The notes beneath the pieces are model-generated. The model had not been told where the DNA came from. It saw only the letters and a list, made by a program, of their open reading frames with translations, and made no database searches. Below are positions 37,069 through 43,000 of a DNA stretch of 64,000 nucleotides, in pieces (position 1 is the first letter of the stretch; every line of letters starts with the position of its first letter). The DNA is from Sphaerolaimus hirsutus (Eukaryota; Nematoda; Chromadorea; Monhysterida; Sphaerolaimidae). The stretch is taken from NCBI GenBank assembly GCA_964036195.1, contig OZ038460.1, positions 19,121,526 to 19,185,525 of the forward strand, given 5' to 3'. The translations under genes and the position numbers were made by a program.

Positions 37069-40000
37069 GTGAGTTTTTTTTTTTGCGGAGACTTGGGTTT
37101 GAAATTGGAATTTGGACGACGGATCATTTTCGTTTCATGTGGTCAACCTCATTGATTAGGTACGTTGTTTTCGAGCGAAATTCGACTATTCTAGGTTTAT
37201 AACCTTCTTTTGGATCAGTGCCAATTTTCTGTTGCCATTTGACGCACCTCTCGTTGAAGCAATTTGTATGACTTAACTGTTAACATTATGTGAGAAACCA
37301 TGCCATCACACAGAAAACACTGTTTTGAAACAATGTATACATAGAAATTCATACCAATAATGTAAATAAATTCAAATTCAAGTGTATAAATGCACTGGGG
37401 TGCGTAGCGTCAAAACGAAGATCTAATGTGTGTTTTGTATTTCCTTCAAAATTTCGCCAATTTAACCTGCCCGAATTCTGGCACTTTACATTAGAATCCA
37501 CACACCGTGGGGCAGAATTCGGACCACTGGCACATTGCCAACAGTAGATATAATCTGATCAAGTCACTGCATTCAGATCGACCTGGACACAATCGACGTG
37601 AGCAATTTGAACCGGCAGTTTCTGTTCCACAAACGACACATTGGCCAGCCGAAAGCTAAAGTAGCGGTGGAGAGCGCTTTGCAGCTATGTCCAGAGGTAT
37701 GTTTGAAACGTTACGGTAAAACACTTCATTTAAATAAAGAGCTAAATCTTTAATTCTCCTTAATTTTTCGCACTGCGTTCTTTCACTATCCTTGAAAAAT
37801 TTCCGCTGTCCCGCAACCTGTAAAGTGTCAAATGTAACTAGGGTTGGAAAAAAACGTTTTTTTTTAATTCCATGTCCAAAAACGTTTTTTTAATTAAAAA
37901 CATTTTTTATACGTTTTTAAAAGCTCCCAGATATGGCCCTGGGTCAATATATATAGGTATATCAGACAAGTGACAATACTCTGTGATGTTATATATGACC
38001 ATATAATGGCCGTGGAGCCATGGGATAGCATTATAAGTGGTGATTTGTGTCAAAAATATCCATTTTTGTCGATACGTTCGTATATCGCCTTATAGTCGAA
38101 TGTTCGTGACTTCAGGTAAAGTTTGGCACGGAATAGTGATGAAACAAGGTTATAAAAGGAGGTTGTTACTTTGGTAGTGATGTTACACACTGTGGAGGTA
38201 CATGGAAGCACATTACCAGAATATTATATACTACAGCAACATATGACGGCTTATTTACCCATGGTAGCACTAGGGTTGGCCGATGTTTTTTTTTAAACGT
38301 TTTTTATTAAAAAAAAACGTTTTTTTTAAAAAAAAAACATGACGTCCGAAATGTTTTTTTTTTAAAAAAAACATCGGCCAAAATTTTTAGTACTAAGCAC
38401 TAAGTATTTTGCAAAATTTTTGCGCGCAAGCGCGCAATTTCACACACAAATTAGCATTGGTGGTTGTTTTCATTGGTTTTGTGGCATTTTTAGTATCAAA
38501 GTATCCATTTCTATGTGCTACCATGGGTTAATAAGCCGACATATGTTGCTGTAGTATATAATATTGAGGTAATGTGCTTCCATGTACCTCCACAGTGTGT
38601 AACTTCACTCTCAAAGTAACAACCTCCCTTTATAACCTTGTTTGATCACTATTCCATGCCAAACTTTACCTGAAGTCACGAACATTTGACTATAAGGCGA
38701 TATACGAATGATATGTCGACGAAAAATGGATATTTTTGACACAAATCACCACTTATAATGCTATCCCATGGCTCCACAGACATTATATGGTCATATATAA
38801 CATCACAGAGTATTGCCACTGTCTGATATACCTATATATGTTGACACAAGGTCACATCTGGGAGGTTTTAAAAAAAAACGTTTTTTATTAAAAAAAAACG
38901 TTTTTTTTTAAAAAAAAACGTTTTTTTTTTAAAAAAACATCGAGTTAAAAAAAAACGTTTTTTTTCCAACCCTAGGTAGCACATAGAAATGGATGGTTTG
39001 ATACTCAAAATGCCACAAAACCCATGAAAACCACCAATGTCAACTTGTGTGTGAAATTGCGCGCTTGCGCGCGAAATTTTTGCAAAATACCTAGTGCTTA
39101 GTACTAAAAATTTCGACCGATGTTTAAAAAAAAAAAATGTTTCGGACCTCGTGTTTAAAAAAAAACGTTTGACTGTTGACATTTTTGCATGCTATTTGAC
39201 ATTTGACAATCGTTAACCTGCCACCCAGGCGAAGCTGACGTACAAGCACGACTCGGTGATCAGCGCAGAGTACAACGTGGAGTTCTTCCAGCAGTTCTCC
39301 GTCGTGTTGAATGCACTCGATAATAGAGGTCGGTGGAGTTGAATTGATTGTTTATTGATTCGATTTTTTTGTGAAAGTATATATTTTTTGTAACTGTGAA
39401 AGTGCATGTAACTTTGGGTTCACACGATGTCCGTATAGATAGCGGCAAAACATACACTCCTGGACAAATGCCTTTATCCTCCTGATCGGGAACAAAAAAA
39501 TTCAATGCCTTCCCTGCTAATGTGCTAACTGTGTTGGGATATAAATGGGATGAATTCTTGTAGATAAAGGTGCCTTTATGCCACATGTCGATTTTTAGGT
39601 TTGTGGGTGCCTTGCTGCTCGTTTGATAGCGCCCCAAAGTCAAATTTCCGGTGGAAAAACGTCTTAATCTTTTATCCTAAAACGTTAAAACAAAGAAGAA
39701 AACATGGTAAAACAATGAAAAAGACTGCGATGCAATATAAAATACCCTCAATGAACTGCTAAAATAGTTATCATTTTGCCAATTTGTATTCAAAATGGTA
39801 TACTCAGTGTACTTGATAATCTGCACTAGCATTGATTTCGCATCATGTTCAAAATTGTCTGCCGTCAGTTGGCAGATAAATATCGACCCGGCATGGAGCG
39901 CATTTTTGAATTTATGAACAAAACGAAATGTTGGCACCATGCCAGCTCACGACTGCACGCATTAAGCAAAATGTAAAAAATATATATATTGATTATGTAC

Positions 40001-43000
40001 GCAGAGTGGGGCCATATTCCGACTGTGGGGGGTTTATATAATTACCCTCTCTATGTATGAGTTTCACCACTCAGTGACCCATATTCAATGTTTGGTTCAC
40101 CATTGAACCAAAAAAGTACAAGGGATAAAGACATTTTTCCAGGAGTGTAGGTCCGTATGGGTAGCGGTGTTCGAACAAATATGTTGATACTTCTAGGTAG
40201 GGTAGGATATGGGTAGGGTTCAAACGGGATTGACTTTCGGGAATTTTCGAGATCGGGATTGGGGTTTCGGGATCGGGGCTGCAAAATCCCAAAAAAAATT
40301 CGGAATTCGAAACGCTGCAAAATCCCGTTTGATCCCAAAATCCGTCATCTAAAAATCGAAATGTCACATTCCAACAACAATCAAAATGGTTTCCCCCCCC
40401 CAGCCGCCCGAAACCACGTGAATCGTCTGTGTCTGGCGGGCAAGGTGCCCTTGATCGAGTCGGGTTCGTCGGGCTACCTGGGCCAGGTGTCCGTCATCCG
40501 CAAAGGGCACACCGAGTGCTACGAGTGCGAGCCTAAGCCCGCTGCCAAGACTTATCCTGGTGGGACTTTCAGAACATGTTAAGTGCCCTGGGAAATGTCA
40601 TGTGTTATGGAAAGTGTCTAAAGTCATGTAAAATGTCCTGGAAAATGAGAAACTCGCCGTTTGTCATTTTCCAGGGAATTTTACATGACTTTTGACACTT
40701 TGCATGACTTTTCACATTTTACAGGGCATTTTACAGGCTCTGGGAGTGCCCCCTGGCTGCACTATTAGGAATACGCCCACGGAGAGTATACATTGCGTCG
40801 TGTGGGCTAAGCATCTTTTCAAGTGGGTTGTTTTGTGTACTGTTTTGTGCCGTTTTTTTTTGTTTTTGTTTTCTGGTATTGGAGTTGCGGTGGTGTGTTT
40901 GGGCTTTTTCGGTGGTGGGCTTTTTCTTTTAAAATCTTCGGACTTCACTATACAATGTTGTTGCACTAAGGTACGATTACTTATGCCTTAAATTTCAATT
41001 TGAGTGGACCTGTTCTGTTCGATTCACGTTTGATTTTATTCAGTCCGAACTTTTTGATGAGAGAACAATCTACATAAATTTACGTCTTTTTGGCTCAATG
41101 CCAACAATTTGTAATGTGTTTGATTCTGCGCGAATGAAGGATGATTCGACGTTTACAATGATTGGTTTTCTTCGACAGAACATTTCCGATATTTTTGTGT
41201 CGACATTCCATATTGTTGCAAAAGTTGCGATACGACAAATTTTTGGCACGCAGCCAGCTGTTCGGCGAGTGCGATATTGATGAAGACGTGTCACCAGATA
41301 CCGCAGATCCTGAGCTTAAAGGTGATTTTTTGTTACATAGCATTACATTGCGGAAGTTGAATGGTTGATTTGGGGCATCTGGGTCTTTTTTTGTAAGTAG
41401 GAAGTGTCAAGTAGGAATTGAAAGTGTCAAGTTGGAATTTTTGCATTGAATTATCGCCCAAAAATAGCTGAAGCAATCTAGAGGGTCGTTTTTCATCGCA
41501 GAAAACGGTGTGCCTTCGGACGTTGCCACGAATGGATCCGGATCTACTGTGGACGAACCGGCGAAAGTGTCCACTCGCAGCTGGGCCGCCGGCAATAACT
41601 ATGAACCCAAGATGCTCTTTGAGAAGGTTGTTTCGGGGTTGGGTGAGATTAGGTGACTTGATGCGGTGTATGCATGTGTTTGTTGGCATTGTGCCAACTT
41701 CCTCACGGCGTGTAACTTTTTGTCAATCAGCAGATATATTGATGTTAGGTATTTTCACATTTATATTTACGTATGGACAAATTTACAGTAAATAACAAAT
41801 ATTTTCGTTTTGTAATAGTATATATTATATCTGATACAAATATATATTTTTAAGTAATACAATCACACTTTCAGCTGTTCCACACGGATATAAAATACTT
41901 GCTGAGCATGGGTCGTTTGTGGAAAACTCGCCGCCCGCCCACACCCCTCCAGTGGGGCGATTTACCTGATGCACGTGCGTTTTACGTTGTTTTTTTTTGT
42001 GTGGGGGGTGTTCAAGGGTTTTCTTTGTGTAGGTTTTTCATCGTGTAGAAGTCAAAATGGGTGAAAAATCGCTATAAATAGGTGAAAAATAGGTCCCGTC
42101 CCACACACGCTAGTTGACATCGACACCAAATGTCAACTGGTTCCTATCCCATTTCCAAGCTTGCATTTGAACGTCGTTCGTTGGCTCGATAGTAAGCTTT
42201 CAATCGGGATCGTTAACCAGTTGACATTTGGTGTCGATGTCAACTAGCGTGTGTCCGCCCATGTTTATATATTTACATTTCGAAAAATGATATTTTCCCG
42301 ATTTTGCCGCAGTGGCCGGCAGCGCTGCGCAGTCGGGTTCGGCAGCGGCGCAAAATCAACTCAAAGACCAGTCGGTTTGGACGCCGTTGCAGTGCCGCGA
42401 CGCTTTTAACGATTCCGTTAAAGTTCTCAGCGAAGCCATGACGGAAAAAGAGAAGGAAGGTGCAGTTTTGGTGTGGGATAAGGTCGGTTTTGTTGTTATT
42501 GTTTTTTTTTGTTTTTAAATTTTTGCCCGACATTTCGGGCAGCCCGTTTCAATTGAATATGAATTATATCAGCTATTTGGCGGAATATAATTATTGATAT
42601 CAACGCCGAAAATCGATTTCACATTTCAATCCATCCACACAAAAATTCACTCAGGACTCGGCCCCCTGCGTGGATTTCGTCACCGCTTCAGCCAATCTGC
42701 GCGCTTTATGTTTCGGCATTGTATCCAAATCTCGTTTCGAAGTGAAATCTATGGCCGGAAATATCGTGCCCGCCGTGGCCACAACGAATGCAATTGTTGC
42801 TGGAATGATTGTTATGGAGACTCTGAAAGTGGTCAGGGGACAGTTTCAGATGAATAGGGCGGTTTGTTTGGGGGGGGGGGCTTTCGTTGAAGGTAGATTG
42901 CATTTTTCTTGTTTTTGGGGTGCCAATTCCGCAAGTAGAAAAGTGATGAGAGATAAGTGATGTTACATGCCATAAGTCGAGGCAGGGCCGTATCCAGGGG

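Follow-up and report, generated by a model that had tools for sequence, protein, structure and literature searches.

Introduction

Introners, as described from diverse eukaryotes, are similar sequences that fill whole introns, and in many of their families the ends are inverted and the target is duplicated (Gozashti et al., 2022, PMC9860276). According to the sections of that survey used here, introners can carry one of the splice sites and co-opt the other from the duplication (the type of its Fig. 2C), and some of them add codons (its Fig. 2F). The same sections report that, among animals and land plants, introners were found in just two groups, both of them animal. In the dinoflagellate Amoebophrya, introner elements are hairpin inverted repeats with direct repeats of 3–5 nt over the exon boundaries, some of these boundaries departing from GT-AG; in the part of that paper considered here, the non-canonical sites are supported by RNA and the authors found no inverted repeats specific to a family (PMC7789003). 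The tunicate Fritillaria borealis also has many introns off GT-AG, and the portion of its description consulted here suggests that the divergence of its splice sites may come from introner transposons whose own splice sites are weak (PMC13326754).

The intron of UBA2 analyzed in this work is, very probably, one copy of a family of nonautonomous DNA transposons that acts as an introner in an animal, as judged from genomic sequence. The family resembles the introners of the 2022 survey, as far as the sections used here describe them, in filling whole introns of many genes, in having a duplication and inverted ends, and in a carried GT that would work with a co-opted right triplet; it differs from them in its 3-bp CWG duplication, in its full-length hairpin and in its animal host, which may or may not belong to one of the two animal groups with introners (PMC9860276). 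With the elements of Amoebophrya, in the part of their description considered here, it shares the hairpin, the short direct repeats and apparent departures from GT-AG, but the ends of the present family are conserved (PMC7789003). The likeness to Fritillaria, taken from a portion of that paper, is less direct: both are animals with introns off GT-AG, putative ones in the present case, but here the donor is nearly always GT and AG is often present (PMC13326754). We recognized no account of this family in the literature searched, a search that was not made by species name and hence says little.

Materials and Methods

The genome comprises 348.5 Mb in 762 contigs, with 11 large chromosomes; the longest contig seen is of 34.0 Mb. 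Its genes indicate that it is that of an animal. Contig C762 is mitochondrial, with 19% G+C and TGA read as Trp. By eye, atp6 follows cox1 directly in this contig, and nad1 and nad2 lie on the opposite strand; ARAGORN, run in bacterial mode, found no tRNA in it.

A total of 129 copies of the family was studied, in three samples. Sample 1 was obtained from the 40 loci most similar to the UBA2 copy, this copy included; 33 remained once one nested copy and six duplicates had been removed. Sample T was drawn from the exact matches to a rarer end (...GGGATTG...), 60 out of 62 being taken; a left end was accepted in 47 of these, and 42 were kept after removal of five duplicates. Sample C1 consisted of 60 stretches at plus-strand places of chromosome C1 among the matches listed; a left end was located in 55 and one duplicate was removed, which left 54. 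Left ends were located by their similarity to the family end, a procedure that favours copies with GT and that may have misplaced a few ends in sample T by about one base.

Joined translations (80, from 79 loci: 29 of the 33 in sample 1, 20 of the 42 in sample T and 30 of the 54 in sample C1) with a coding-looking open frame were scanned against Pfam. As the frames were picked by eye, with about 68 of the 80 in gene sense relative to the GT end, neither the proportion of Pfam matches nor their orientation is an unbiased rate. The score tables for donors and acceptors were approximate and served to list options only. A codon model, trained on the 21 loci with Pfam support, was used to score both strands of each copy, the Pfam loci being held out in turn. 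The model is weak: it gave a firm call on 12 of the 21 Pfam loci, 10 of them right, and the better-scoring strand was the right one in 17 of 21.

Results

An inverted-repeat element between two exons of UBA2

The whole stretch of DNA analyzed, referred to as the window, comprises 64,000 nucleotides and corresponds to positions 19121526-19185525 of contig C16. An earlier note on this DNA had proposed that an inverted-repeat element lies between two exons of UBA2. Such an element is present at that place, and the alignment of 40 loci refined its extent, leaving outside it a CTG on each flank (Table 1). It is MITE-like and an imperfect inverted repeat along its full length: an alignment of 201 nt with its reverse complement shows 76.6% identity. 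The predicted fold of its RNA reaches -114 kcal/mol, compared with a mean of -57 for 200 shuffled sequences, none of which was as good.

When the flanks were joined, omitting the element and one CTG, a 74-aa protein was obtained that aligns without gaps to residues 120-193 of the PDB protein 'SUMO-activating enzyme subunit 2' (phmmer, E 1e-36). The exon located 3′ of the element is the one that we take to hold the catalytic cysteine and, judged by eye, UBA2 continues in further exons downstream. Upon searching the genome with the 74-aa protein, two rows were obtained at the UBA2 locus and a single additional one, of 42%, on C9, which is probably another E1-like gene; UBA2 is hence considered single-copy.

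The donor GT that had been placed at the left junction is also found there. The enumeration of splice pairs returned two that are in frame, both with the GGGAG acceptor, and the shorter insert would retain nine bases, encoding VPP before Gly-Cys. The intron put forward earlier (40560-40746, with nine retained coding bases) thus has its GT and its AG and keeps the frame; it is, however, just one option, and the VPP insert is unproven.

Two other inverted repeats were observed at the UBA2 locus. A large foldback (window 38000-39200; arms, by eye, at about 38000-38300 and 38540-38790) is located just 5′ of a UBA2 exon and contains poly-A/T and AAAAACG repeats. The second one lies within a later UBA2 intron (window 42103-42254), with ends, by eye, ACACACGCTAGTTGACATCGACACC.

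Table 1. Features of the UBA2 locus around the element (window positions).
Feature	Position	Strand	Basis
UBA2 exon 5′ of the element, encoding AARNHVN...KTYP	40404..40559	+	phmmer match to PDB UBA2 chains; acceptor CCCCCAG just upstream, by eye
Left CTG of the 3-bp target duplication	40557..40559	+	agreement of the middle base in the family
Palindromic MITE-like element of 193 nt that fills the intron	40560..40752	+	alignment of 40 loci; fold z -13.6
Predicted 5′ splice site GT (CCTG/GTGGGA)	40560..40561	+	sequence; 54/55 sense-coding copies have GT and one has GC
Candidate AG 3′ splice site (CTGGGAG/TGCC), which would retain 9 nt	40745..40746	+	enumeration of in-frame splice pairs
Nine bases that would be left in the mRNA (VPP) if AG 40745-40746 were used	40747..40755	+	deduced from the sequence
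Right CTG of the duplication; alternative exact non-AG (TG) 3′ end	40753..40755	+	family alignment
UBA2 exon 3′ of the element, encoding G-CTIRNTP...WAKHLF	40756..40822	+	phmmer; donor GTGGG at 40823, by eye

Size of the family, ends and target site

The family had been reported from ten or more other sites, and the window does contain 16 clusters, including that of UBA2 (three of them correspond to a single match each). Most of the other copies in the window retain one recognizable end or none. A first DNA search of the genome with the element gave 81 rows, corresponding to both strands at about 40 places (the best 40 of 3,464 candidates were scored). The right-end pattern ACAGGGTCTGGGANTGCCCCCWG has 1,090 and 1,046 exact matches on the two strands, that is, 2,136 in the whole genome, and the reversed control none. 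When up to two mismatches were allowed, 7,613 and 7,600 matches were obtained (again none for the reversed control), a count that may include both ends of one element, as two bases distinguish the left end from the pattern. A strand bias along chromosome C1, which appeared one-sided among the matches listed, was rejected, the two strands being about equal (31/31; 1,090/1,046).

The ends of the family are GGTGCCANTCCCAGACCCTG...CAGGGTCTGGGANTGCCCC. They are inverted but unequal (left, GGTGCCANTCCCAG; right, reversed, GGGGGCANTCCCAG), and in the consensus a GT stands beside the triplet at the left end only. The flanking triplets of samples 1 and T have an almost invariant outer C and G, and their middle base is the same on both sides in 54 of 75 copies, compared with 35.9 expected from composition. 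In these same copies, C precedes the triplet in 45/75 and G follows it in 42/75, and hence the target looks like CCWGG or, less strictly, (C)CWG(G), with CWG being duplicated.

PIF/Harbinger MITEs are short nonautonomous inverted-repeat elements with a 3-bp target duplication of the TWA type. The present family is likewise a short nonautonomous inverted repeat with a 3-bp duplication, but it duplicates CWG rather than TWA. A genome search for DDE_Tnp_4 (Harbinger) gave at least 163 matches (150 candidates scored), and in the two regions that were read (L169 and L171) no family end could be assigned to the transposase element. L169 (C16:5448000-5452500) is a Harbinger-type DDE_Tnp_4 transposon, apparently intron-bearing, and could not be linked to the introner family. 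Its first 900 bp are 99-100% identical among the 40 copies scored, which suggests that it was active very recently. It does not look like a source of transposase for the family: by eye, its right end differs, and two family-like ends located downstream look like a degraded MITE copy. L171, of a second DDE_Tnp_4 type, shows just one weak family-like match (six edits). Among the 15 copies without an accepted left end, the sole long interior shared was of 425 bp, between L077 and L096.

Copies of the family interrupt the coding sequence of unrelated genes

Of the 79 loci scanned, 21 gave a Pfam match that exceeds the cut-off of its family and spans the join of the flanks; the remaining 58 gave no such match. 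At these 21 loci, with boundaries taken from protein homology, the gap between the matched stretches of coding sequence equals the element plus one triplet. The protein families are unrelated to each other: in sample 1 (13 loci), AMP-binding (L009), BRK (L015), UAA (L017), 7tm_1 (L021), KH_1 (L022), GH63 (L023), trypsin (L025), HSP70 (L027), Myb (L031), collagen (L034), Neur_chan_memb (L036), VWA (L043) and ThiF, which is UBA2 itself (L048); in sample T (two loci), KIF1B (L103) and C12orf66 (L053); and in sample C1 (six loci), CHGN (L122), AA_permease (L124), Srx GPCR (L133), Xan_ur_permease (L136), Rcd1/CNOT9 (L145) and AMP-binding (L151). A PDZ match in sample T (L061) begins at the join and was left out of the count. 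The introner-like behaviour that the earlier note had suggested from one case is thus supported at 20 loci besides UBA2.

The GT end lies upstream in gene sense at 19 of the 21 loci, L009 and L031 being antisense. Each of the 19 sense loci would be disrupted if the element were read through: 18 would acquire stops, and L145, the CNOT9 gene, a frame shift. CNOT9 is single-copy, and its joined protein aligns without gaps to CCR4-NOT subunit 9 from PDB (E 4e-42). In this copy the host frame runs free of stops across the whole element, yet the length of the element shifts the frame. At the antisense locus L031, in a Myb-domain gene, a possible in-frame donor (CCT/GTGAAA) was observed 18 bases into the element, together with the duplication CAG as acceptor; judged from this one sequence, both insertion orientations may be able to splice.

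If the coding calls of sample C1 (33/54) applied to the 2,136 right ends, about 1,300 copies would lie in coding sequence, or about 1,200 when the six stretches dropped from C1 are counted as noncoding, an extrapolation from one chromosome made with a weak classifier.

Copies within coding sequence are preferentially oriented

The codon model, with Pfam labels unused, called 46 of the 129 copies sense and 11 antisense (p 3e-6), leaving 8 as ambiguous and 64 as not coding; with the labels added the four figures were 55, 11, 3 and 60, respectively. Sense prevailed over antisense in sample 1 (18 to 3) and in C1 (29 to 4), and in sample T alone the bias was not significant (8 to 4). The preference is also found outside the 21 Pfam loci (36 sense vs 9 antisense, p 7e-5). 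The ratio of 19 sense to 2 antisense at the Pfam loci cannot be counted as further evidence of its own, given that sense frames made up about 68 of the 80 submitted.

Splice-site states and paired triplets

At the donor position, GT is present in 54 of the 55 sense copies (GC in the other), compared with 51/60 of those not called coding (p 0.017), a difference that is confounded with sample and age, because the contrasts within samples vary (sense vs not coding, 29/29 vs 19/20 in C1 and 8/8 vs 22/29 in T), the search for left ends also having favoured GT. On the acceptor side of the 55 sense copies, an AG occurs at the exact boundary (+0) in 31, only nine bases upstream (+9), as in UBA2, in 5, and at neither position in 19. 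An acceptor inside the right end of the element is thus one possibility among others: in those 31 copies the AG belongs to the right triplet, outside the element, and would allow exact removal. The boundary AG shows no significant difference in frequency between sense copies (31/55) and those not called coding (27/60; p 0.26). Nor is the AG at +9 enriched among copies with CTG (5/23, compared with 6/31 copies with CAG), and hence there is no sign of selection for it.

Copies with mismatched triplets were compared by direction. In C1, 11 are CTG/CAG (seven sense, three not called coding and one antisense) and none CAG/CTG; in samples 1 and T together the direction is opposite, with 5 CTG/CAG and 9 CAG/CTG. 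For all sense copies the ratio is 11 to 2, vs 4 to 7 for copies not called coding (Fisher p 0.03). The asymmetry also extends beyond the coding calls, as the not-coding copies of C1 show 3 to 0. From the excess of CTG/CAG pairs, an improvement of CTG copies to CAG seems likely.

Discussion

The family described here has defined ends, a target duplication, a high copy number, a position within otherwise continuous coding sequence of many genes, and a preferred orientation. We propose that the element transposes into an exonic CCWGG site, with duplication of CWG, and that its left end would then supply a GT donor straight after the left triplet. Where the triplet reads CAG in gene sense, its right copy would serve as an AG acceptor following CCCC; removal would be exact and the mRNA unchanged. 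Where it reads CTG, the acceptor would come either from a nearby AG (in UBA2, GGGAG, nine bases before the exon) or from the right CTG once it has mutated to CAG. The long hairpin may draw both ends together.

The copies at CTG sites are those that admit a different account of splicing, in which their introns are removed exactly, from GT to TG; the hairpin would bridge the ends and make an AG unnecessary, and UBA2 would gain no residues. Nine of the 19 sense copies without AG at +0 and +9 are Pfam-supported, a figure that speaks for this account. They include CNOT9, Xan_ur_permease (L136), the Srx-type GPCR (L133), KIF1B (L103) and C12orf66 (L053). The case of CNOT9, which is single-copy and aligns without gaps, points in the same direction: the nearest in-frame options listed for it take either an acceptor within the next exon or, with an AG at +31 (33 extra bases), a donor GC that is weak, and a TG end would be exact. 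On the other hand, the surplus of CTG/CAG pairs among sense copies points to a preference for AG. Moreover, GC or GT is present at +2 in 15 of the 19 copies and AG at +19 in all 19, and hence an in-frame insert of 21 bases is possible at most of them; the right triplets of the L017/L026 pair, now CCG and GCG, do not provide TG. We therefore regard removal as GT...TG as possible but, on balance, unlikely.

Elements that are cut from somatic DNA are known from the IESs of ciliates, and excision of this kind, instead of splicing from RNA, would account for removal at CTG sites without AG. Neither the orientation bias of 46 to 11 nor the CTG/CAG asymmetry would be expected from excision of DNA, and we consider it very improbable here.

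Two other readings concern the host sequence, and both are hardly credible. That the element sits in older introns, which it nearly fills, would agree with the 60 of 129 copies found in sequence not called coding, but at the 21 Pfam loci the coding sequence restarts at the duplicated triplet, without leftover intron sequence, and that triplet is the target duplication. That the element interrupts pseudogenes, or faulty alleles of a duplicated assembly, finds some basis in the near-identical duplicate pairs (six in sample 1, five in T and one in C1), but UBA2 and CNOT9 occur as single copies whose coding sequence is highly conserved on each side, and the same pattern recurs in many unrelated genes. 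In the six pairs of sample 1 (L013/L019, L016/L030, L017/L026, L021/L028, L027/L033 and L031/L042), host locus and element are both near-identical; the acceptor-side triplet reads CGG in gene sense in L033.

The reading that we favour is thus that of an introner family of DNA transposons spliced from RNA. Within it, a more speculative and quite doubtful proposal is that the hairpin introner would be cut exactly at the CWG duplication whatever the middle base, a large class of young introns being GT...TG and the right CTG changing to CAG only later. If this were true, introns would be born with a non-canonical 3′ end and would then mature into GT-AG.

The origin of new introns is a long-standing question, and for mass intron gain introners make a strong candidate. 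The present genome would be that of an animal in which a single family has inserted into coding sequence on the order of a thousand times or more, as roughly extrapolated. The paired triplets of this family record change on the acceptor side after insertion, and its CTG class lets an AG-less start of new introns be tested directly.
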